Virus record (IMG/VR): IMGVR_UViG_3300000212_000001
Span: 1 to 47,503 of that record
Strand: one strand, 5' to 3'
Length of the DNA stretch: 47,503 nucleotides
From: a virus
Shown: positions 28,807-46,044 of the stretch, in pieces
Numbering within the stretch: the first letter of the stretch is position 1
Layout: each line of letters opens with the position of its first letter
Made by a program: the position numbers and the translations under genes
Notes under the pieces: model-generated
Told to the model about the DNA's origin: nothing
Database searches by the model: none
Seen by the model: only the letters and a program-made list of their open reading frames with translations

Positions 28807-28835
28807 TTGACAATTAAGTTGGGGTGTGGTATACT
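28807..28835 (+). promoter_or_regulatory. Sigma70-like promoter before the methyltransferase
   Basis: TTGACA (28807-28812), a 17-base spacer and TATACT (28830-28835). Predicted transcription starts near 28842, which rules out upstream start codons such as 28826 for the following gene. It gives the methyltransferase and acyltransferase-hydrolase genes their own early transcript. Confidence 0.82.
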
Positions 28836-28858
28836 ATGAATATAGTGGGGGGTTTAAT

Positions 28859-29866
28859 TTGGATAAAATATATAATTGTGACATCATGGAAGGTTTCAAA
28901 AAGTTAGATGATAATTCTATTGATTGTGTCATTACGTCACCTCCATATTGGCAATTAAGAGACTATGGGTTTGATGGGCAGTGGGGATTAGAACCCACAT
29001 TCCAAGAATATCTTGAACATTTATGGGAAATGATGGATGAGATATATAGAGTTTTAAAAGATACTGGTACTGTGTGGATCAATCTTGGCGACACATATTC
29101 TACTAAATCTGGTGGACTTAATATGGGATATACTGGAAGTAGAACTGGTGAATATTTGGGTGGTATGGTGATAAAACAACCATCTGATTTGAGATCTAAA
29201 AGTTTATTATTGATTCCTCATAGATTTGCTATTGGTTGTTATGATCGTGGTTGGACTATTCGTAATGATATAATCTGGGCAAAGAGAAATGGTATGCCGG
29301 AATCAGTTCGTGATAGATTCTCAAAGAAACACGAATATATCTTTTTAATGACGAAGAAACCTAAAGGTTATTATTTTGACCTTGATTCTATTCGTGATGA
29401 GAATATGACTACTTCTATTAAAAGAGCCTTACGTGGTACTAATGAAAATAAGTATTCTACTGGTATTGGGGTGAGTTCCGCTCAAACTCTTTCTAGACCA
29501 AAGAATGGTGGACGTGATATTGATGAATACAATAGTGGTAATACTTCATTAAATCCAAAAGGAAAGAACCCGGGTGATGTGTCTGATTTTTGGAATATCA
29601 CGATAAAGGGTAATCGTTCTTCACACCTTGCTTCATATAATTCAGAATTAATTGATAAACCTATAATTGCGGGTTGTCCAGTAGGTGGTGTTGTTCTTGA
29701 CCCCTTTTCTGGCACAGGAACTACATTAGTTAGAGCATCACAACTTGGTAGAAAGTATATTGGATTTGAAGCATCAGAACAGTTTTTTAAGATAACTAAA
29801 GAGAATGTTAATACTGAGATTGAACGTAAGAATATTCCGACACTTGATGGTTTTTTAACATTATGA
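28859..29866 (+). CDS. DNA methyltransferase (N6-adenine/N4-cytosine, beta-type)
   Basis: About 335 residues. I place the start at TTG 28859 because GGGGGG (28847-28852) sits 6 bases upstream and the frame before it overlaps the promoter. The result, MDKIYNCDIMEGFKKL, is the usual beginning of this family. Catalytic motif IV is TSPPYWQLRDYG (~31-42) and SAM-binding motif I is LDPFSGTGTTLVRASQLGRKYIGFE near the C-terminus, so the order is the beta class. The central target-recognition region is Gly/Asn/Ser-rich. It probably modifies phage DNA against host restriction; no cognate nuclease is nearby. It overlaps the next gene by 4 bases (ATGA). Confidence 0.92.
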   Translation: MDKIYNCDIMEGFKKLDDNSIDCVITSPPYWQLRDYGFDGQWGLEPTFQEYLEHLWEMMDEIYRVLKDTGTVWINLGDTYSTKSGGLNMGYTGSRTGEYLGGMVIKQPSDLRSKSLLLIPHRFAIGCYDRGWTIRNDIIWAKRNGMPESVRDRFSKKHEYIFLMTKKPKGYYFDLDSIRDENMTTSIKRALRGTNENKYSTGIGVSSAQTLSRPKNGGRDIDEYNSGNTSLNPKGKNPGDVSDFWNITIKGNRSSHLASYNSELIDKPIIAGCPVGGVVLDPFSGTGTTLVRASQLGRKYIGFEASEQFFKITKENVNTEIERKNIPTLDGFLTL

Positions 29867-32145
29867 AACTTTCTAAGTATAATCATGATTGGGTTGATAT
29901 AGACAAACGTATGTATCGTTTGTCTTTACGAGCATTTCGTATTATGAAGAAAGTGTTACGCATGAATGTTAATATTCATTCTGCGTGTAATATAAATGAT
30001 GGTAGTATATTTGTATTTAATCATTTTTCTCGTATAGAAACATTTATTCCTCAATATTTGATACATGAAGAAAATGGTAGTTATTGTTATTCTGTTGGTT
30101 CTGGTGAATTTTTTAAAAATGATGGTATATTGTCATCGTATTTAACGAAGTTGGGGGTTGTACCACATGATCATCCAAGGTTGTTTTCTATATTAGCAAA
30201 ACAAATATTACATGGTCATAAAGTAGTTATTTTCCCTGAAGGTGGGATGGTAAAGGATCATCGGGTTGTTGATGATGAAGGACATTATAATATGTTATGT
30301 CAAACAACCATGAAAGTGCGGAAACAACATACTGGTGCAGCTGTTTTGTCACATGGGTTGGAGGTGTTTAAGTTCATAGTTCGTAATGCTCATAGAGATA
30401 TGGATATGGATAGATTATTAATGTGGCAAAAGGAATTAGATTTTCATAGTTTGGATGAGTTATTGGCAGCAGTAGAAATACCTACTAATATAGTTGCATC
30501 TAATATAACGTTTTATCCTTTACGTGCGACTGATAATGTTTTATTGAAGGCTGTTGAATATATTTCTAATGGACTTACATTACGACAAACAGAAGAATTG
30601 ATAGTTGAGGGGAATTTAATTACTAAAGATACTGATATGGATGTTGTTATGAGTAAAGTGATATCTACCTCCGGTATTTGGCATTCATGGAAGTCATCTT
30701 TAACTGAAACATTTACTGATTCTATAAAATCCTTAGATGATGTGTTTTCTATTGGTAGTGTTGATAAGTCTTGGAAAGGTGAGATGTTGCATAAACATCT
30801 CATAAAGTGTTCTAATGTTACACGTGACTTTTACACTAAAAGTATTTATTCTTATGTTACTATTAATTTAAGCCATCTGACATCTTGTTTATTGATGTAT
30901 AGATTCAAACAAAATATATCATTTGTAAATAAGAAAACACTTTATAAGGAGTTATATTTAACATTAAAAACATTACAACATAAATCAGGAGTGAGGTTGC
31001 ACGATGGTTTAATGATACCTAATATATATGGTGATATATTAAATGGTAATAATGTTAACATGATTAAGTATATTGATTCTCTTGAAAAACAAGGATTGCT
31101 AATTATTGGTGGTGATGTTATATACTTATCTGGTAATTTTGATTCTGGTGTAGATCCGTTGACGGTTAGGGTTGAGAATTTATTAGTTGTATATTATAAT
31201 GAAGTACAGCCGGTTTCTATTGTTGGTAAAGTTATTAATAAGATTGTTGAAAGTGTAGATACTATTAGTAACAAAGATATTGCAATGCATTTATTGGACG
31301 ACCAACAGTTGTCATATGAGTATGATAAGAATATGTATATTAATGATAAATATAATTCTAAATTTGATGGTATTAATTCTTCTGATAATAAACCATTTAT
31401 TCTATTTCCTAAGAAGTCTAATGGTATTGTTGTGTTATTAATCCATGGATTATTGTCATCTCCATATGAAGTTAGAGGTTTTGGTGAATATTTATGTGGT
31501 ATAGGATATATTGTAGTTGGTGCAAGAATAGTTGGACATGGTACATCACCTTATGATTTGTTATCATATAGTTATGAAGATTGGATTAAATCAGTATACG
31601 AGTATTTTCAAATAACTTCTATGTTATCTGAAAATATTGTGATTGTTGGATTTTCTACTGGCGGACTTATTGCATTACGTGAAGAATTTTCTTCTGATTA
31701 TAGAGTTAAATCAGTAGTTGTTATATCAGCTCCATTTTTTTATACGGATTTCCGGGTTAAATTTGCACCATTAGTTTATTATGTTAATAGGGTGGTGGGT
31801 TTGGTGATAGGGAATAATGGAGTGAAACCTTTTTTTAAGAATATTCCAGAGAATGAACATATTAATTATTGGTTAGTTCCCACACGTAGTATATATGAAA
31901 TAGGTAAATTAGTTAAAAGTGTGAAGAAGTGTTTATGTGATGTAACAATACCTATGTTGGTCATTTATTCTAAGGATGACACATTAGTTTCAGTAGATGG
32001 TGCTGATTATATATATAATAATATATCTTCTGTAGATAAAGAAATGCATATTATTGGTTCTGATTGTCATGGTATATTGTATAATAATTCTGATTTAATA
32101 TGGGAAAGAATTTCAATGTTTATTGAAAAAAGACTTGACATTTGA
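29863..32145 (+). CDS. PlsC-type acyltransferase / alpha-beta hydrolase fusion protein
   Basis: A 760-residue, two-domain protein. The N-terminal part is a glycerolipid acyltransferase: FNHFSRIET supplies the NHx4(D/E) catalytic motif (~52-58) and FPEGG (~124-128) the acyl-acceptor motif. A helical linker (~190-500) follows. The C-terminal part is an alpha/beta hydrolase: LLIHGLLSS oxyanion region (~522-530), nucleophile GFSTGG with Ser598, Asp in YSKDDTLVS (~703) and His in SDCHGI (~736), a full catalytic triad like monoacylglycerol lipases and lysophospholipases. One polypeptide could thus both remove and add acyl chains. There is no signal peptide. It is coupled by ATGA to the methyltransferase. 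I know of no such fusion in T4 or cyanophages. Confidence 0.88.
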   Translation: MKLSKYNHDWVDIDKRMYRLSLRAFRIMKKVLRMNVNIHSACNINDGSIFVFNHFSRIETFIPQYLIHEENGSYCYSVGSGEFFKNDGILSSYLTKLGVVPHDHPRLFSILAKQILHGHKVVIFPEGGMVKDHRVVDDEGHYNMLCQTTMKVRKQHTGAAVLSHGLEVFKFIVRNAHRDMDMDRLLMWQKELDFHSLDELLAAVEIPTNIVASNITFYPLRATDNVLLKAVEYISNGLTLRQTEELIVEGNLITKDTDMDVVMSKVISTSGIWHSWKSSLTETFTDSIKSLDDVFSIGSVDKSWKGEMLHKHLIKCSNVTRDFYTKSIYSYVTINLSHLTSCLLMYRFKQNISFVNKKTLYKELYLTLKTLQHKSGVRLHDGLMIPNIYGDILNGNNVNMIKYIDSLEKQGLLIIGGDVIYLSGNFDSGVDPLTVRVENLLVVYYNEVQPVSIVGKVINKIVESVDTISNKDIAMHLLDDQQLSYEYDKNMYINDKYNSKFDGINSSDNKPFILFPKKSNGIVVLLIHGLLSSPYEVRGFGEYLCGIGYIVVGARIVGHGTSPYDLLSYSYEDWIKSVYEYFQITSMLSENIVIVGFSTGGLIALREEFSSDYRVKSVVVISAPFFYTDFRVKFAPLVYYVNRVVGLVIGNNGVKPFFKNIPENEHINYWLVPTRSIYEIGKLVKSVKKCLCDVTIPMLVIYSKDDTLVSVDGADYIYNNISSVDKEMHIIGSDCHGILYNNSDLIWERISMFIEKRLDI

Positions 32146-32163
32146 GTCATATTGTGGTATTAT
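32135..32163 (+). promoter_or_regulatory. Sigma70-like promoter before the tRNA/small-gene block
   Basis: TTGACA (32135-32140) overlaps the end of the acyltransferase-hydrolase gene, followed by a 17-base spacer and TATTAT (32158-32163). It would transcribe the 33-aa peptide, tRNA-Met and the second methyltransferase operon. Confidence 0.78.
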
Positions 32164-32836: not shown

Positions 32837-33111
32837 AGAAAGATAAAATAGATAGGTTGTATGAGTTAGATCAATTAATAATGAAGGTGTGGGGATTTTC
32901 TGATGATTTAGAATTAATTATTAAAAAAATGAGAGTTAGTTCAGAACGTGAAGATATTGTTGCAGTATCCAAATTATTTGAGTTAAGGATGGAATCGTTG
33001 TGGAAGGGTTATGAGTCGTGTTTTGAAAACCCTGATACTATTAAATTTAAAGGTCATCAAGTAAATGATTTTTTCCCCAGTAAGGATGGTGGTGATGATA
33101 CTGTATTGTGA
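32833..33111 (+). CDS. Hypothetical helical protein
   Basis: A 92-residue, charged protein coupled by ATGA to the previous gene and overlapping the methyltransferase gene by 17 bases. Predicted helices are MKKDKIDRLYELDQLIMKVWGF and SEREDIVAVSKLFELRMESLWKGYESCF. Position suggests co-expression with the methyltransferase. Function is unknown. Confidence 0.65.
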   Translation: MKKDKIDRLYELDQLIMKVWGFSDDLELIIKKMRVSSEREDIVAVSKLFELRMESLWKGYESCFENPDTIKFKGHQVNDFFPSKDGGDDTVL

Positions 33112-34546
33112 CGATTGTATTGATAGAATGAAACAGATGATAGATGATGGTGTGCAAGTTGATTCAATTGTTACGGATCCTCCATATGAGTTAGGATTTA
33201 TGGGGAAACAATGGGATGATACTGGTATAGCATTTTCTAAAGAAACATGGGAATTGGCATTAAAGTTATTGAAACCGGGTGGTCATTTACTTGCATTTTC
33301 TGGTTCTAGAACCTATCATAGAATGGCAGTTGCTATTGAGGACGCTGGGTTTGAGATACGAGATCAGATTATGTGGTTATATGGTTCTGGATTTCCAAAG
33401 AGTTTGAATATCGGAAAACAGATTGATAAGAAACTTGGTAATGAAAGAGATGTTGTCGGTAAAGGGAAACCTATGAGTTCACTCGGAGTTATGCATGATG
33501 ATGATTGGAAAAGTGATGATTCATATAAAGAAACCATGGGTAATTCAGAATATGAGGGGTGGGGAACCGCACTCAAACCAGCACACGAACCTGTTGTTAT
33601 GGCTAGGAAACCATTATCAGAAAAGACTATTGTCGCAAATGTTCTGAAGCATGGAACTGGTGGTATTAATATTGATGGTTGTAGAGTGGGATTATCCGAG
33701 GGTGATGATTCAAGATTAGGTGGTAAAGGAACTTGGAAAACCGACAAGATGGCAAAAGATGTTTATGTTGGTGGATATGCTGGAGAAAAAACAGGATCAA
33801 GTGAGTTAGGTAGATTCCCATCAAATGTAATGCATGATGGTTCTGATGTTGTGAAAGAGGTATTTCCAAAACGGAAAACAACTAATCGTAAATCTCGACC
33901 CGATGATAATGTATTTACTAATGAAAACTCAGGTATGAAACAGGAAGTAAATCATTATGCTGATGCAGACCCAAGAGGTAGATTTCCGTCAAATGTAATG
34001 CATGATGGTTCTGATGCGGTGAAAGGGGTATTTCCAGATACTAAAGCTGGTAAATACAAAGGTGAAGGTTCAAAATCTGGTGGTATTTGGGATAAATCAA
34101 CTGGTACCCCAGCCGGTAGAGAATATGGTGATGAGGGTTCTGCCTCACGATATTTCTATTCGCCAAAGGTGTCTAAGAAAGAGAGAAATCAGGGTTGTGA
34201 TGGAATGCCTATCAAAAAGACATCAAGTATGTCTGGTAGACGAGATCCACATGAAATGGATAAATCAAAGATAGATAATGATGTTACTGGAAGATTTGTA
34301 ACAGAACGAAAGAATGTACATCCAACGGTTAAACCTGTAGAGTTAATGAAATACTTATGTAGAATGGTTACACCGAAAGACGGTACTGTTTTAGACCCAT
34401 TTATGGGTTCTGGTTCTACTGGTATGGCTGCTAAATATGAAGGATTTGATTTTATTGGTATTGAGAGAGAGAAAGAGTATTTTGAGATTGCAACATTAAG
34501 AATAGATTCGGTTGAACCTGTGACTGATTTGGATAGTTTTTTATAA
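33095..34546 (+). CDS. DNA methyltransferase with duplicated internal motif
   Basis: About 483 residues and a beta-class N6-adenine/N4-cytosine methyltransferase. The N-terminus MILYCDDCIDRMKQMIDDG leads into motif IV TDPPYELGFMGKQWDD (~28-43). The C-terminus has HPTVKPVELMKYLCRMVTP and SAM-binding LDPFMGSGSTGMAAKYEGFDFIGIE. The middle contains two near-copies of GRFPSNVMHDGSD-VVK-VFP (encoded about 33807-33870 and 33978-34035), probably part of target recognition. I prefer ATG 33095 over 33086 and 33065 because AAGG is spaced correctly and the start resembles the family. This is a second, unrelated methyltransferase to the one at 28859. Confidence 0.92.
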   Translation: MILYCDDCIDRMKQMIDDGVQVDSIVTDPPYELGFMGKQWDDTGIAFSKETWELALKLLKPGGHLLAFSGSRTYHRMAVAIEDAGFEIRDQIMWLYGSGFPKSLNIGKQIDKKLGNERDVVGKGKPMSSLGVMHDDDWKSDDSYKETMGNSEYEGWGTALKPAHEPVVMARKPLSEKTIVANVLKHGTGGINIDGCRVGLSEGDDSRLGGKGTWKTDKMAKDVYVGGYAGEKTGSSELGRFPSNVMHDGSDVVKEVFPKRKTTNRKSRPDDNVFTNENSGMKQEVNHYADADPRGRFPSNVMHDGSDAVKGVFPDTKAGKYKGEGSKSGGIWDKSTGTPAGREYGDEGSASRYFYSPKVSKKERNQGCDGMPIKKTSSMSGRRDPHEMDKSKIDNDVTGRFVTERKNVHPTVKPVELMKYLCRMVTPKDGTVLDPFMGSGSTGMAAKYEGFDFIGIEREKEYFEIATLRIDSVEPVTDLDSFL

Positions 34547-43101: not shown

Positions 43102-45012
43102 ATGGGTAATATTATTGGTATTGATTTGGGTACTACTAATTCATGTGTAGCTGTATTAGAGAATGGTAAGGCAGTAGTAATTGAAAATGGTGAAGGTTCT
43201 AGGACGACACCATCTATAGTTTCACATTCGGATTCGGAAATATTAGTAGGACAGTCGGCTAAGAGACAATCGGTGACTAATCCAAAAGATACATTGTTTG
43301 CGGTTAAGAGATTAATTGGCAGAAAGTTTAAAGATGATGCAGTTCAAAAGGACATATCTATGGTGCCTTATGACATTGTAGAGGCGGATAATGGTGATGC
43401 GTGGGTAAAATCTGGTGGTGAGTTATTATCTCCCCCAGAAATTTCATCAAAAATTTTAATGAAATTAAAAAAAGATGCGGAGTCGTATTTGGGTTCTGAT
43501 GTAACACAGGCAGTTATTACTGTTCCTGCTTATTTTAATGATTCACAAAGACAGGCAACAAAGGATGCTGGTAAGATTGCAGGACTAGATGTTATGCGAA
43601 TTATCAATGAACCTACTGCGGCAGCTTTATCTTATGGTTTAGATAAGGGTGATGTTACTGATGATAAGGTAGTTGCTGTTTATGATCTTGGTGGTGGTAC
43701 TTTTGATGTTTCTATTATTGAGATGTCGAATGTGGATGGGGAATATTCCTTTGAAGTATTGTCTACTAATGGTGATACATTTTTAGGTGGTGAGGATTTC
43801 GATTTACGACTTATTGATTATCTCTGTGATGAATTTAAAAAAGAAAATGGTGTAGATCTTCATAATGATCCTATTGCATTACAACGATTAAAAGAAGCGG
43901 CAGAGAAGTGTAAAATTGAGTTGTCATCGACTCAAGAAACTGAAGTAAATTTACCATATATTACTGCGGATTCTACTGGTCCTAAACATTTAAATGTTAA
44001 GATTTCACGTTCTAAATTGGAGAAGATGGTATCTGAATTAATTGAACGTACAAAAAACCCATGTGTTACTGCGTTAAAGGATGCAGACATTACTAAGGTT
44101 GATGATGTTATTTTAGTTGGTGGGCAAACTAGAATGCCTAAAGTTCAAGAAATGGTAAAATCTATTTTTGGTATTGAACCGAGAAAGGATGTAAATCCTG
44201 ATGAGTCAGTTGCTCTTGGTGCTGCTACACAGGGTGGTGTGTTATCTGGTGGTATTGACAATGTGTTATTGCTTGATGTTACTCCATTGTCATTAGGTAT
44301 TGAAACGATGGGTGGTGTTATGACCACATTAATTGAAAAGAATACCACCATTCCAACGAAAAAAAGTGAAGTATTTTCGACGGCAGAGGATAATCAATCA
44401 GCTGTAACTATTCATGTTCTTCAAGGTGAACGTTCAGTTGCTTCTGGTAATAATTCTTTAGGTAGATTTGATTTAACAGAAATTCAACCAGGACCACGCG
44501 GAACACCACAAATTGAAGTTGAATTTAATATTGATGCTAATGGTATTATGCATGTTTCTGCCAAGGATAAAAACACTGGTAAGGAACAATCAATTGAAAT
44601 TAAATCTTCATCGGGGTTATCTGATGAAGATGTAGAACGTATGATTAAAGAGGGTGAAGAACATAAAGATGCAGATGATAAGTATACTGCGTTGGTTGGT
44701 GCAAGAAATATGGCGGAAGGATTTATTAATGATGTTGAGAAGAAATTAGCAGACGAAGAAATTATAGTACCAGATGAAGAACGTGAGAAGATCGTAAATA
44801 GTGTTTCTGAATTGAAAGAATCTATGTCTGGTGAAGATTTAGATGATATTAATACTAAAGTGCAATCGTTGGCTGAGTTATCTGCAACTTTACAAAAGCC
44901 AGTTCCGGAACCTGAAGCAGAAGTCGTTGATGGTGTCGTTCCCGAAGAGGCAGAAGTTGTAGATGCTGAGATTGTGGAACCGACACCAGAAGAAAAAACA
45001 GAAACTAAATAA
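43102..45012 (+). CDS. dnaK: Molecular chaperone DnaK (Hsp70)
   Basis: A full-length 636-residue Hsp70. ATPase domain: [15 protein letters not shown] (~4-18), [32 protein letters not shown] (~198) and [11 protein letters not shown] (~340). The linker [12 protein letters not shown] leads into the substrate-binding domain, with the lid ending in an acidic tail ([18 protein letters not shown]). ADNGDAWVK and EVVDGVV wording is of proteobacterial DnaK type. GAAAGGAG precedes ATG 43102. No defect is seen. It is followed after 12 bases by dnaJ, and there is no grpE in the window. Phage-borne DnaK could aid folding of capsid and tail proteins or replicate lambda-style chaperone control of replication complexes. 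Confidence 0.97.
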
Positions 45013-45024
45013 TTCGGTGATTTG

Positions 45025-46044
45025 ATGTCTAAACGTGATTATTATGATGTATTGAGTGTGAAGAAGAATGCATCTTCTGGTGATATAAAGAAAAGTTATC
45101 GTAAGTTGGCAATGAAATATCACCCTGATAAAAACCAGGGTGATACTGTTTGTGAATCTAAGTTTAAAGATGTTACTGAGGCGTATGAAATTTTGTCTGA
45201 TCCTGAAAAACGCAGACAGTATGATACATTTGGACATGATACACAAAGACAGGGTGGACGTGGATTTGATCCATTTTCAGATATATTCGGTGGGTTTGGG
45301 CAACAACAACAAAGTCGTCCAAGACAAAACCATAGGGGTCGTGATGTTGAATATACGGTTTCTTTAACTTTACAACAATCTGTATATGGTGATGATTTAG
45401 AAATAAAGATACCAAAGGAATATAGATGTACACCATGTAGGGGTAGTGGTATATTATCTCCTAAAGATGAGATTGATTGTCGTTCTTGTGGTGGTACTGG
45501 TATGTTATATCATTCTAATCTGTTTGGCCAACGGGTTGCTTCTGAGTGTGGTTATTGTAGTGGTCGTGGTAAGGTTATAATAAAACCTTGTAAAGTGTGT
45601 AATGGGGAAGGTTATACAAAAAAACAGGAAAATTTTAAATTAACTATACCTTCTGGAATAACCAGTGGTGAGAGGTTAAGATATCAAGGACGTGGATTTA
45701 CTAACAAAGATAATGGTGTTGTCGGTGATTTATATATATCAGTTAAAATATTACCACATGACATATATCAACGAGATGCTTTTAATTTGATTCGTAAGTT
45801 AGAGGTTGGATATTCCACTTTGTGTTTGGGTGGTGAGGTTCAGTTAACTTTATTAGATAATACCACTCTTAAAGTTAGAATATCACGTGGGAGTGTTGTT
45901 GGTAAGTTATTAAGAATAACTGGTAAAGGTATACGTCGAGGTAATGGTCGTGTTGGAGATTTAATATGTAGTATTGATTTGCAAATTCCTAAAAATATTA
46001 ATTCTAAACATGAAAAGATATTACGGTCTTTGTCAAAGTTTTAA
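45025..46044 (+). CDS. dnaJ: Co-chaperone DnaJ (Hsp40, type I)
   Basis: About 339 residues with the complete type I layout: J-domain with HPD (33-35) in KYHPDKNQG, a Gly/Phe-rich linker ([16 protein letters not shown]), four zinc-binding CxxCxGxG repeats ([32 protein letters not shown], ~136-195) and a C-terminal substrate domain. It is slightly shorter than E. coli DnaJ (376), mainly at the C-terminus. ATG 45025 is preferred; the TTG one codon earlier is an alternative. It stimulates DnaK ATPase and delivers substrates; the pair forms an operon. Confidence 0.96.

Follow-up and report, generated by a model that had tools for sequence, protein, structure and literature searches.

The stretch of viral DNA analysed here (the window; 47,503 nucleotides, positions 1 to 47,503 of IMG/VR record IMGVR_UViG_3300000212_000001) encodes a T4-type scaffold protein, major head protein and tail tube protein, a UvsW-like helicase and a late sigma factor, along with SbcC/SbcD-like nuclease subunits, clamp, clamp loader, DNA polymerase, UvsX, helicase, primase, ribonucleotide reductase and thymidylate synthase. 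Two long open reading frames at 43102-46044 match PHROGs with no known function, phrog_22485 (E 6e-258) and phrog_14336 (E 3e-84). On the plus strand, at positions 29863-32145, lies a gene that is open for 760 codons from its ATG and encodes a 760-residue protein in which an acyltransferase is followed by an alpha/beta hydrolase. The initial annotation had described a single polypeptide carrying both domains, with a complete Ser598-Asp-His triad in the hydrolase, and this is borne out by the reading frame, the Pfam matches and the alignment; the motifs that it named, NHFSRIE (residues 53-59), FPEGG (residues 124-128) and the nucleophile Ser598, are all present as described.

The core of the acyltransferase domain, residues 36-135 (29968-30267), matches PF01553 with a score of 25.2 bits against a cut-off of 23 (28.4 bits when this domain is searched alone), and the same model is matched by 47 of the 55 members of the fusion family. 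Within this core, the HX4E catalytic motif (30019-30039) contributes His54 and Glu59, and the second acyltransferase motif, FPEGGMVKD, occupies residues 124-132 (30232-30258). The latter is invariant in an alignment of 88 sequences, a result that is partly circular because PEGGMVKD served as the search key; the other motifs are free of this circularity, and N53, H54, E59, S598, D706 and H736 are each retained in at least 84 of the 88 rows. The middle region, residues 219-505 (30517-31377), accounts for over a third of the protein, is mostly helical and has no confident match to anything known, the only hint being a faint GPAT_C match in one of the 55 family members (E 0.0085). Neither the N-terminal nor the middle part gave more than chance matches in profile searches of PDB sequences.

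The hydrolase domain, residues 511-760 (31393-32142), is of the monoacylglycerol-lipase type by both Pfam and fold comparison. Hydrolase_4 (PF12146) matches residues 523-740 with E 3.7e-18 and 66.1 bits, against a cut-off of 27, and the alignment identifies the GFSTGG nucleophile elbow with Ser598 (31648-31665), the triad acid Asp706 (31978-31980) and the triad base His736 (32068-32070). An AlphaFold2 model built with the 88 sequences reached pLDDT 85.4 and pTM 0.85; without an alignment, the model was unusable (pLDDT 31). In the model, Ser598 sits at a strand-to-helix elbow and Asp706 and His736 follow strands, and the motif sets of both active sites are intact in the sequence. Among solved structures, the fold is nearest to LipS and the monoacylglycerol lipases, with target-length TM scores of 0.82-0.88; among the best 50 matches listed in the PDB fold search there were hydrolases alone and none for the N-terminal half. 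The Hydrolase_4 match, the predicted fold and the triad together assign the C-terminal domain to the serine aminopeptidase S33/monoacylglycerol-lipase type.

The gene immediately upstream, on the same strand, encodes a DNA methyltransferase (28826-29866), the stop codon of which overlaps the ATG of the fusion, so that translational coupling of the two is likely. The pair is preceded by a sigma-70-like promoter (TTGACA-17-TATACT with an extended -10; 28807-28835, plus strand), a site that is kept in three relatives, and the next such promoter (TTGACA-17-TATTAT; 32135-32163, plus strand) starts inside the 3' end of the fusion gene. Five sigma-70-like sites were observed in the window versus 0.65 expected, and late sites of the T4 type (TATAAATA) were not enriched there. 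Because the promoter is conserved and sigma-70-like and the late consensus is not enriched, early expression of the methyltransferase-fusion unit is suggested. In the interval 28807-28860, the GTG called as the methyltransferase start (28826) falls within the conserved promoter-like site, and translation therefore probably begins at a codon further downstream. Gene order around the fusion matches in the related contigs L003, L005, L006 and L007. A second DNA methyltransferase gene downstream of the fusion (33065-34546) lies in a variable region: it has no match in L007, is split in L005 and is shorter in L006.

The IMG/VR protein search recovered the complete reading frame from six further contigs, at 78-100% identity, with the hydrolase triad intact in every viral copy. 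In pairwise comparisons of four distinct viral copies, dN/dS was 0.21-0.31 for the whole gene, 0.13-0.22 for the acyltransferase part, 0.23-0.42 for the middle region and 0.24-0.46 for the hydrolase. Because the gene is intact in these further contigs and dN/dS is well below 1, we conclude that the fusion is real, common to several viral contigs and under purifying selection. Among the viral records searched, it is confined to one narrow phage lineage, and the earlier statement that no such fusion was known from T4 relatives holds for the phage records searched, in which the matches were to the hydrolase domain only. The next nearest T4-like contigs, in which a neighbour gene is 59-77% identical, contained no copy in the stretches examined, several of them short. 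Several neighbouring genes vary less than the fusion gene, with identities of 95-99% for some of them. The fusion gene also looks mosaic: in L007 (8001-10280), the N-terminal 209 residues are 94% identical to those of the window (29863-32142), and the C-terminal part is nearer to L005. A 9.4-kb contig labelled as viral (L008, 7630-9276) carries a bacterial-type copy at 38% identity, in which the N-terminal part alone is in frame and no hydrolase match is found.

When 84,980 bacterial and archaeal genomes were scanned, automatic peptide patterns brought up no relatives; a hand-made PEGGMVKD pattern detected at least 119 stretches in bacterial and archaeal genomes, nearly all of them full or contig-cut homologues with NHF[SAT]RxE and, mostly, where complete, GFSTGG. 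More than 100 bacterial homologues share the same full-length architecture, mainly from Methylococcales and Rhodospirillales, and most are 31-48% identical to the viral protein over about 750 residues. The best bacterial matches, L093 (Methylococcales OPU3_GD_OMZ), L082 and L086, are 46-48% identical along the whole length, and L102 is 50% identical over its cut length; further homologues come from Methylobacter, Crenothrix, Methylomonas, Thalassospira, Kiloniella, Magnetovibrio, Sedimenticola and a few other phyla. The same fusion occurs in bacteria, marine methanotrophs of the OPU3 type among them. A frameshift or an assembly artefact is ruled out by the 760-codon reading frame, the intact viral copies and the full-length bacterial homologues.

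In the phylogenetic tree, the viral copies form one clade (support 100) that is sister (support 99) to L093, L082, L086 and L102, inside Methylococcales, and separate trees of residues 1-505 and 506-760 recover the same sister group (support 100 and 92, respectively). Because the N-terminal and hydrolase trees agree, the two halves came together, and it is nearly certain, judging from these trees, that the phage obtained the complete fusion from a methanotroph; the sister sequences belong to marine methanotrophs of the OPU3 type. The viral branch since leaving the bacteria is long (0.9). Thus, the fusion is not the phage peculiarity that it had been taken for; a phage-only origin is ruled out by the widespread chromosomal family, within which the viral copies are nested. 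This nesting in a cellular gene tree and the location among viral genes are two of the features of a host-derived auxiliary metabolic gene.

The tRNA-Met gene of the phage (32303-32378) best matches genomes of the sister methanotroph clade (70.7 bits), followed by other Methylococcales (61.7 bits), with scores of at most 50.9 bits outside Methylococcales; the tRNA was not matched in G016, the genome to which L093 belongs. On the basis of two genes, the fusion and the tRNA-Met, the host probably belongs to marine Methylococcales, among OPU3-type methanotrophs.

The acyltransferase had been described as PlsC-type, and a PF01553 domain with intact motifs is indeed present; this is, however, not a standard PlsC because the first motif is HX4E (His54...Glu59) rather than the canonical HX4D, in all alignment rows with residues at these positions. 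Motifs of the HX4E/D form have been described for other acyltransferases such as LpxM (PMC6286764). None of the PlsC-type NCBIfam models matches the window protein; TIGR00530 matches one of the 55 family members (E 0.0013) and not the window protein. Profile comparison with Escherichia coli PlsC was not significant, E. coli PlsB aligns across both motifs in register, again not significantly, and E. coli Aas aligns with the acyltransferase profile at E 1.1e-4 and a probability of 56%, so that the profile comparison favours Aas over PlsC and PlsB. GPAT_C, the domain of classical PlsB, was found in none of ten genomes carrying the fusion.

Some homologues indicate which half might be the more fundamental. 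In three Kiloniella proteins (L099, L069 and L028) and one from Novispirillum (L068), Ser598 is replaced by Ala or Gly and the acyltransferase motif is kept, a possible loss of hydrolase function in these four Alphaproteobacterial homologues. Because these proteins lost the nucleophile and retained the acyltransferase motif, acyl transfer may be the core function of the family, and for some members the hydrolase may be of secondary importance.

The genes adjoining the bacterial copies offer a functional hint. MlaA takes phospholipid out of the outer membrane; fatty acids are broken down by the Fad proteins. The next gene on the same strand encodes FadD, a long-chain acyl-CoA ligase, in 14 and FadA, a thiolase, in 12 of the 75 loci with a readable next open reading frame (26/75, a raw count), and such neighbours often continue with a FadB-like protein and FadE; around two thirds of the bacterial loci have no adjoining fad gene. 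FadD directly follows the fusion in L093, L082 and L086, the nearest relatives, and in L086 FadA and FadB come after it. Directly upstream, an MlaA-family lipoprotein is encoded in 12 of the 31 Methylococcales loci with a readable upstream open reading frame. The Fad families were confirmed on representatives with NCBIfam; the MlaA representative matched with E 2.4e-38, below the strict equivalog cut-off. This context points to phospholipid turnover feeding beta-oxidation. Because mlaA lies upstream and fad genes downstream, we infer that the fusion acts between phospholipid removal and fatty-acid degradation, hydrolysing a glycerolipid and re-acylating the lysolipid. The literature searched contained no paper joining lysophospholipid acyltransferase, beta-oxidation, MlaA and fadD.

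Taken together, these observations moderately favour a host-derived auxiliary metabolic gene, carried by a T4-like phage and probably expressed early, which encodes a bifunctional lipid-turnover enzyme that would de-acylate and re-acylate host glycerolipids. The proposal that the protein both cuts and transfers acyl chains is retained in this form, as a probable one, given the intact motifs of both domains, and the biochemical mechanism is likewise moderately supported. The C-terminal serine hydrolase, of the monoacylglycerol-lipase or lysophospholipase type, would release acyl chains from glycerolipids, and the N-terminal HX4E acyltransferase would return acyl chains, from acyl-CoA or acyl-ACP, to lysolipids. 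In bacteria, the freed fatty acids would be activated and then re-esterified or burned, as suggested by the FadD, FadA, FadB and FadE genes adjoining many copies and MlaA adjoining some. Type I methanotrophs house methane monooxygenase in intracytoplasmic membranes. In the phage, the enzyme most likely would speed the turnover of host phospholipids, including those of these membranes, with fatty acids or an altered membrane as the outcome. The phage records, all fragments, contained no match to FadD (PF00501), so that oxidation of the freed fatty acids would need host enzymes. Host phospholipid hydrolysis has been reported in T4-infected E. coli, and, in a phage-infected nitrifier, intracytoplasmic membranes collapse and free C16 fatty acids rise (PMC13356812). 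A methanotroph phage that carries a lipid-turnover enzyme would be in keeping with these reports.

The same reports, along with the triad being intact in all viral copies, would also suit a role in takeover or lysis, whereby the enzyme degrades membrane phospholipid so that the intracytoplasmic membranes that generate energy collapse or the envelope weakens late in infection. We consider this unlikely, although the best placed of the alternatives: the acyltransferase half, which a pure lipase would not need, is at least as conserved as the hydrolase (dN/dS 0.13-0.22), and the conserved promoter is sigma-70-like, with no enrichment of the T4 late consensus across the window. Strong conservation of the acyltransferase, and a lineage-specific setting in which the fusion and a DNA methyltransferase follow one sigma-70-like promoter, could instead speak for remodelling rather than fatty-acid release, that is, a membrane-lipid change that blocks superinfection or alters the envelope; however, no link to a receptor or to defence was found, and the bacterial family exists without phages, making this account improbable. 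Storage or ester lipids, which the initial annotation had also envisaged, could be made if the two domains combined to produce triacylglycerols, waxes or similar esters, and hydrolase and acyltransferase are fused in the phytyl ester synthases of plants and cyanobacteria, with the hydrolase first and a DGAT-type acyltransferase second, the opposite of the order in the phage protein; the bacterial context, however, is phospholipid handling by MlaA and fatty-acid degradation, not storage-lipid synthesis, so that this idea finds no support and is very improbable. Least credible of all is a chance-acquired cargo gene without current use, for which confinement to one narrow lineage, variability exceeding that of several neighbours and the mosaic look could be cited, but which is disfavoured by dN/dS well below 1, with purifying selection in every domain, by motifs intact across copies that are 78-83% identical and by the long branch since leaving the bacteria.

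Building on the lipid-turnover reading, we tentatively put forward a more specific possibility, namely, that phages of marine methanotrophs use a phospholipid-salvage enzyme of the host to dismantle the methane-oxidation membranes early in infection, gaining fatty acids for energy or building blocks. Should this be true, the gene would be an auxiliary one that ties lipid turnover to methane oxidation; in bacteria, the family would join the removal of phospholipid to beta-oxidation, a connection so far unrecognised. Beyond this possibility, the analysis predicts that the host of an uncultured phage lineage is to be sought among OPU3-type, methane-oxidising Methylococcales. A widespread and uncharacterised bacterial enzyme family comes to light as well, with a clear hint at its function in the gene context: MlaA lies upstream in some members and FadD-FadA-FadB-FadE downstream in many. 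It also adds lipid turnover to the processes that methanotroph phages may control, of which pmoC is the best-known example. The literature searched contained no published example of a phage-borne lipid-turnover fusion and no paper joining phage auxiliary genes with fatty acid, phospholipase and acyltransferase.

Several known systems resemble the phage protein in part. The chromosomal acyltransferase-hydrolase family shares its domain order and the NHFxRxE, FPEGGMVKD and GFSTGG motifs, but the bacterial copies often lie in runs of fad genes whereas the phage copies lie near two DNA methyltransferases. The monoacylglycerol lipases (Bacillus H257, Geobacillus and the marine Bacillus Bomgl) and LipS have the same fold and triad as the hydrolase half, at 23-28% identity, but are stand-alone enzymes of about 250 residues. 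E. coli Aas, a 2-acyl-GPE acyltransferase fused to an acyl-ACP synthetase, recycles lysophospholipids; it belongs to the same acyltransferase superfamily, with a weak profile match, and is likewise a fusion joining acyl transfer with acyl supply. The difference is that Aas combines HX4D with an AMP-binding synthetase, whereas the phage protein combines HX4E with a serine hydrolase, and in the fusion family FadD is a separate neighbour gene in some bacteria. Finally, the methanotroph phage genes known so far centre on pmoC (PMC7674155, PMC10904782), and the main texts of these two papers do not mention lipid or acyltransferase genes; pmoC gave no match in the viral records analysed here, nor did it in the control genomes. 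Like the phages described in this work, the pmoC-carrying phages of freshwater methanotrophs carry metabolic genes derived from methanotrophs (PMC7674155); here, however, the acquired gene concerns lipid turnover, and a lineage from a marine oxygen-minimum zone is among its bacterial relatives.
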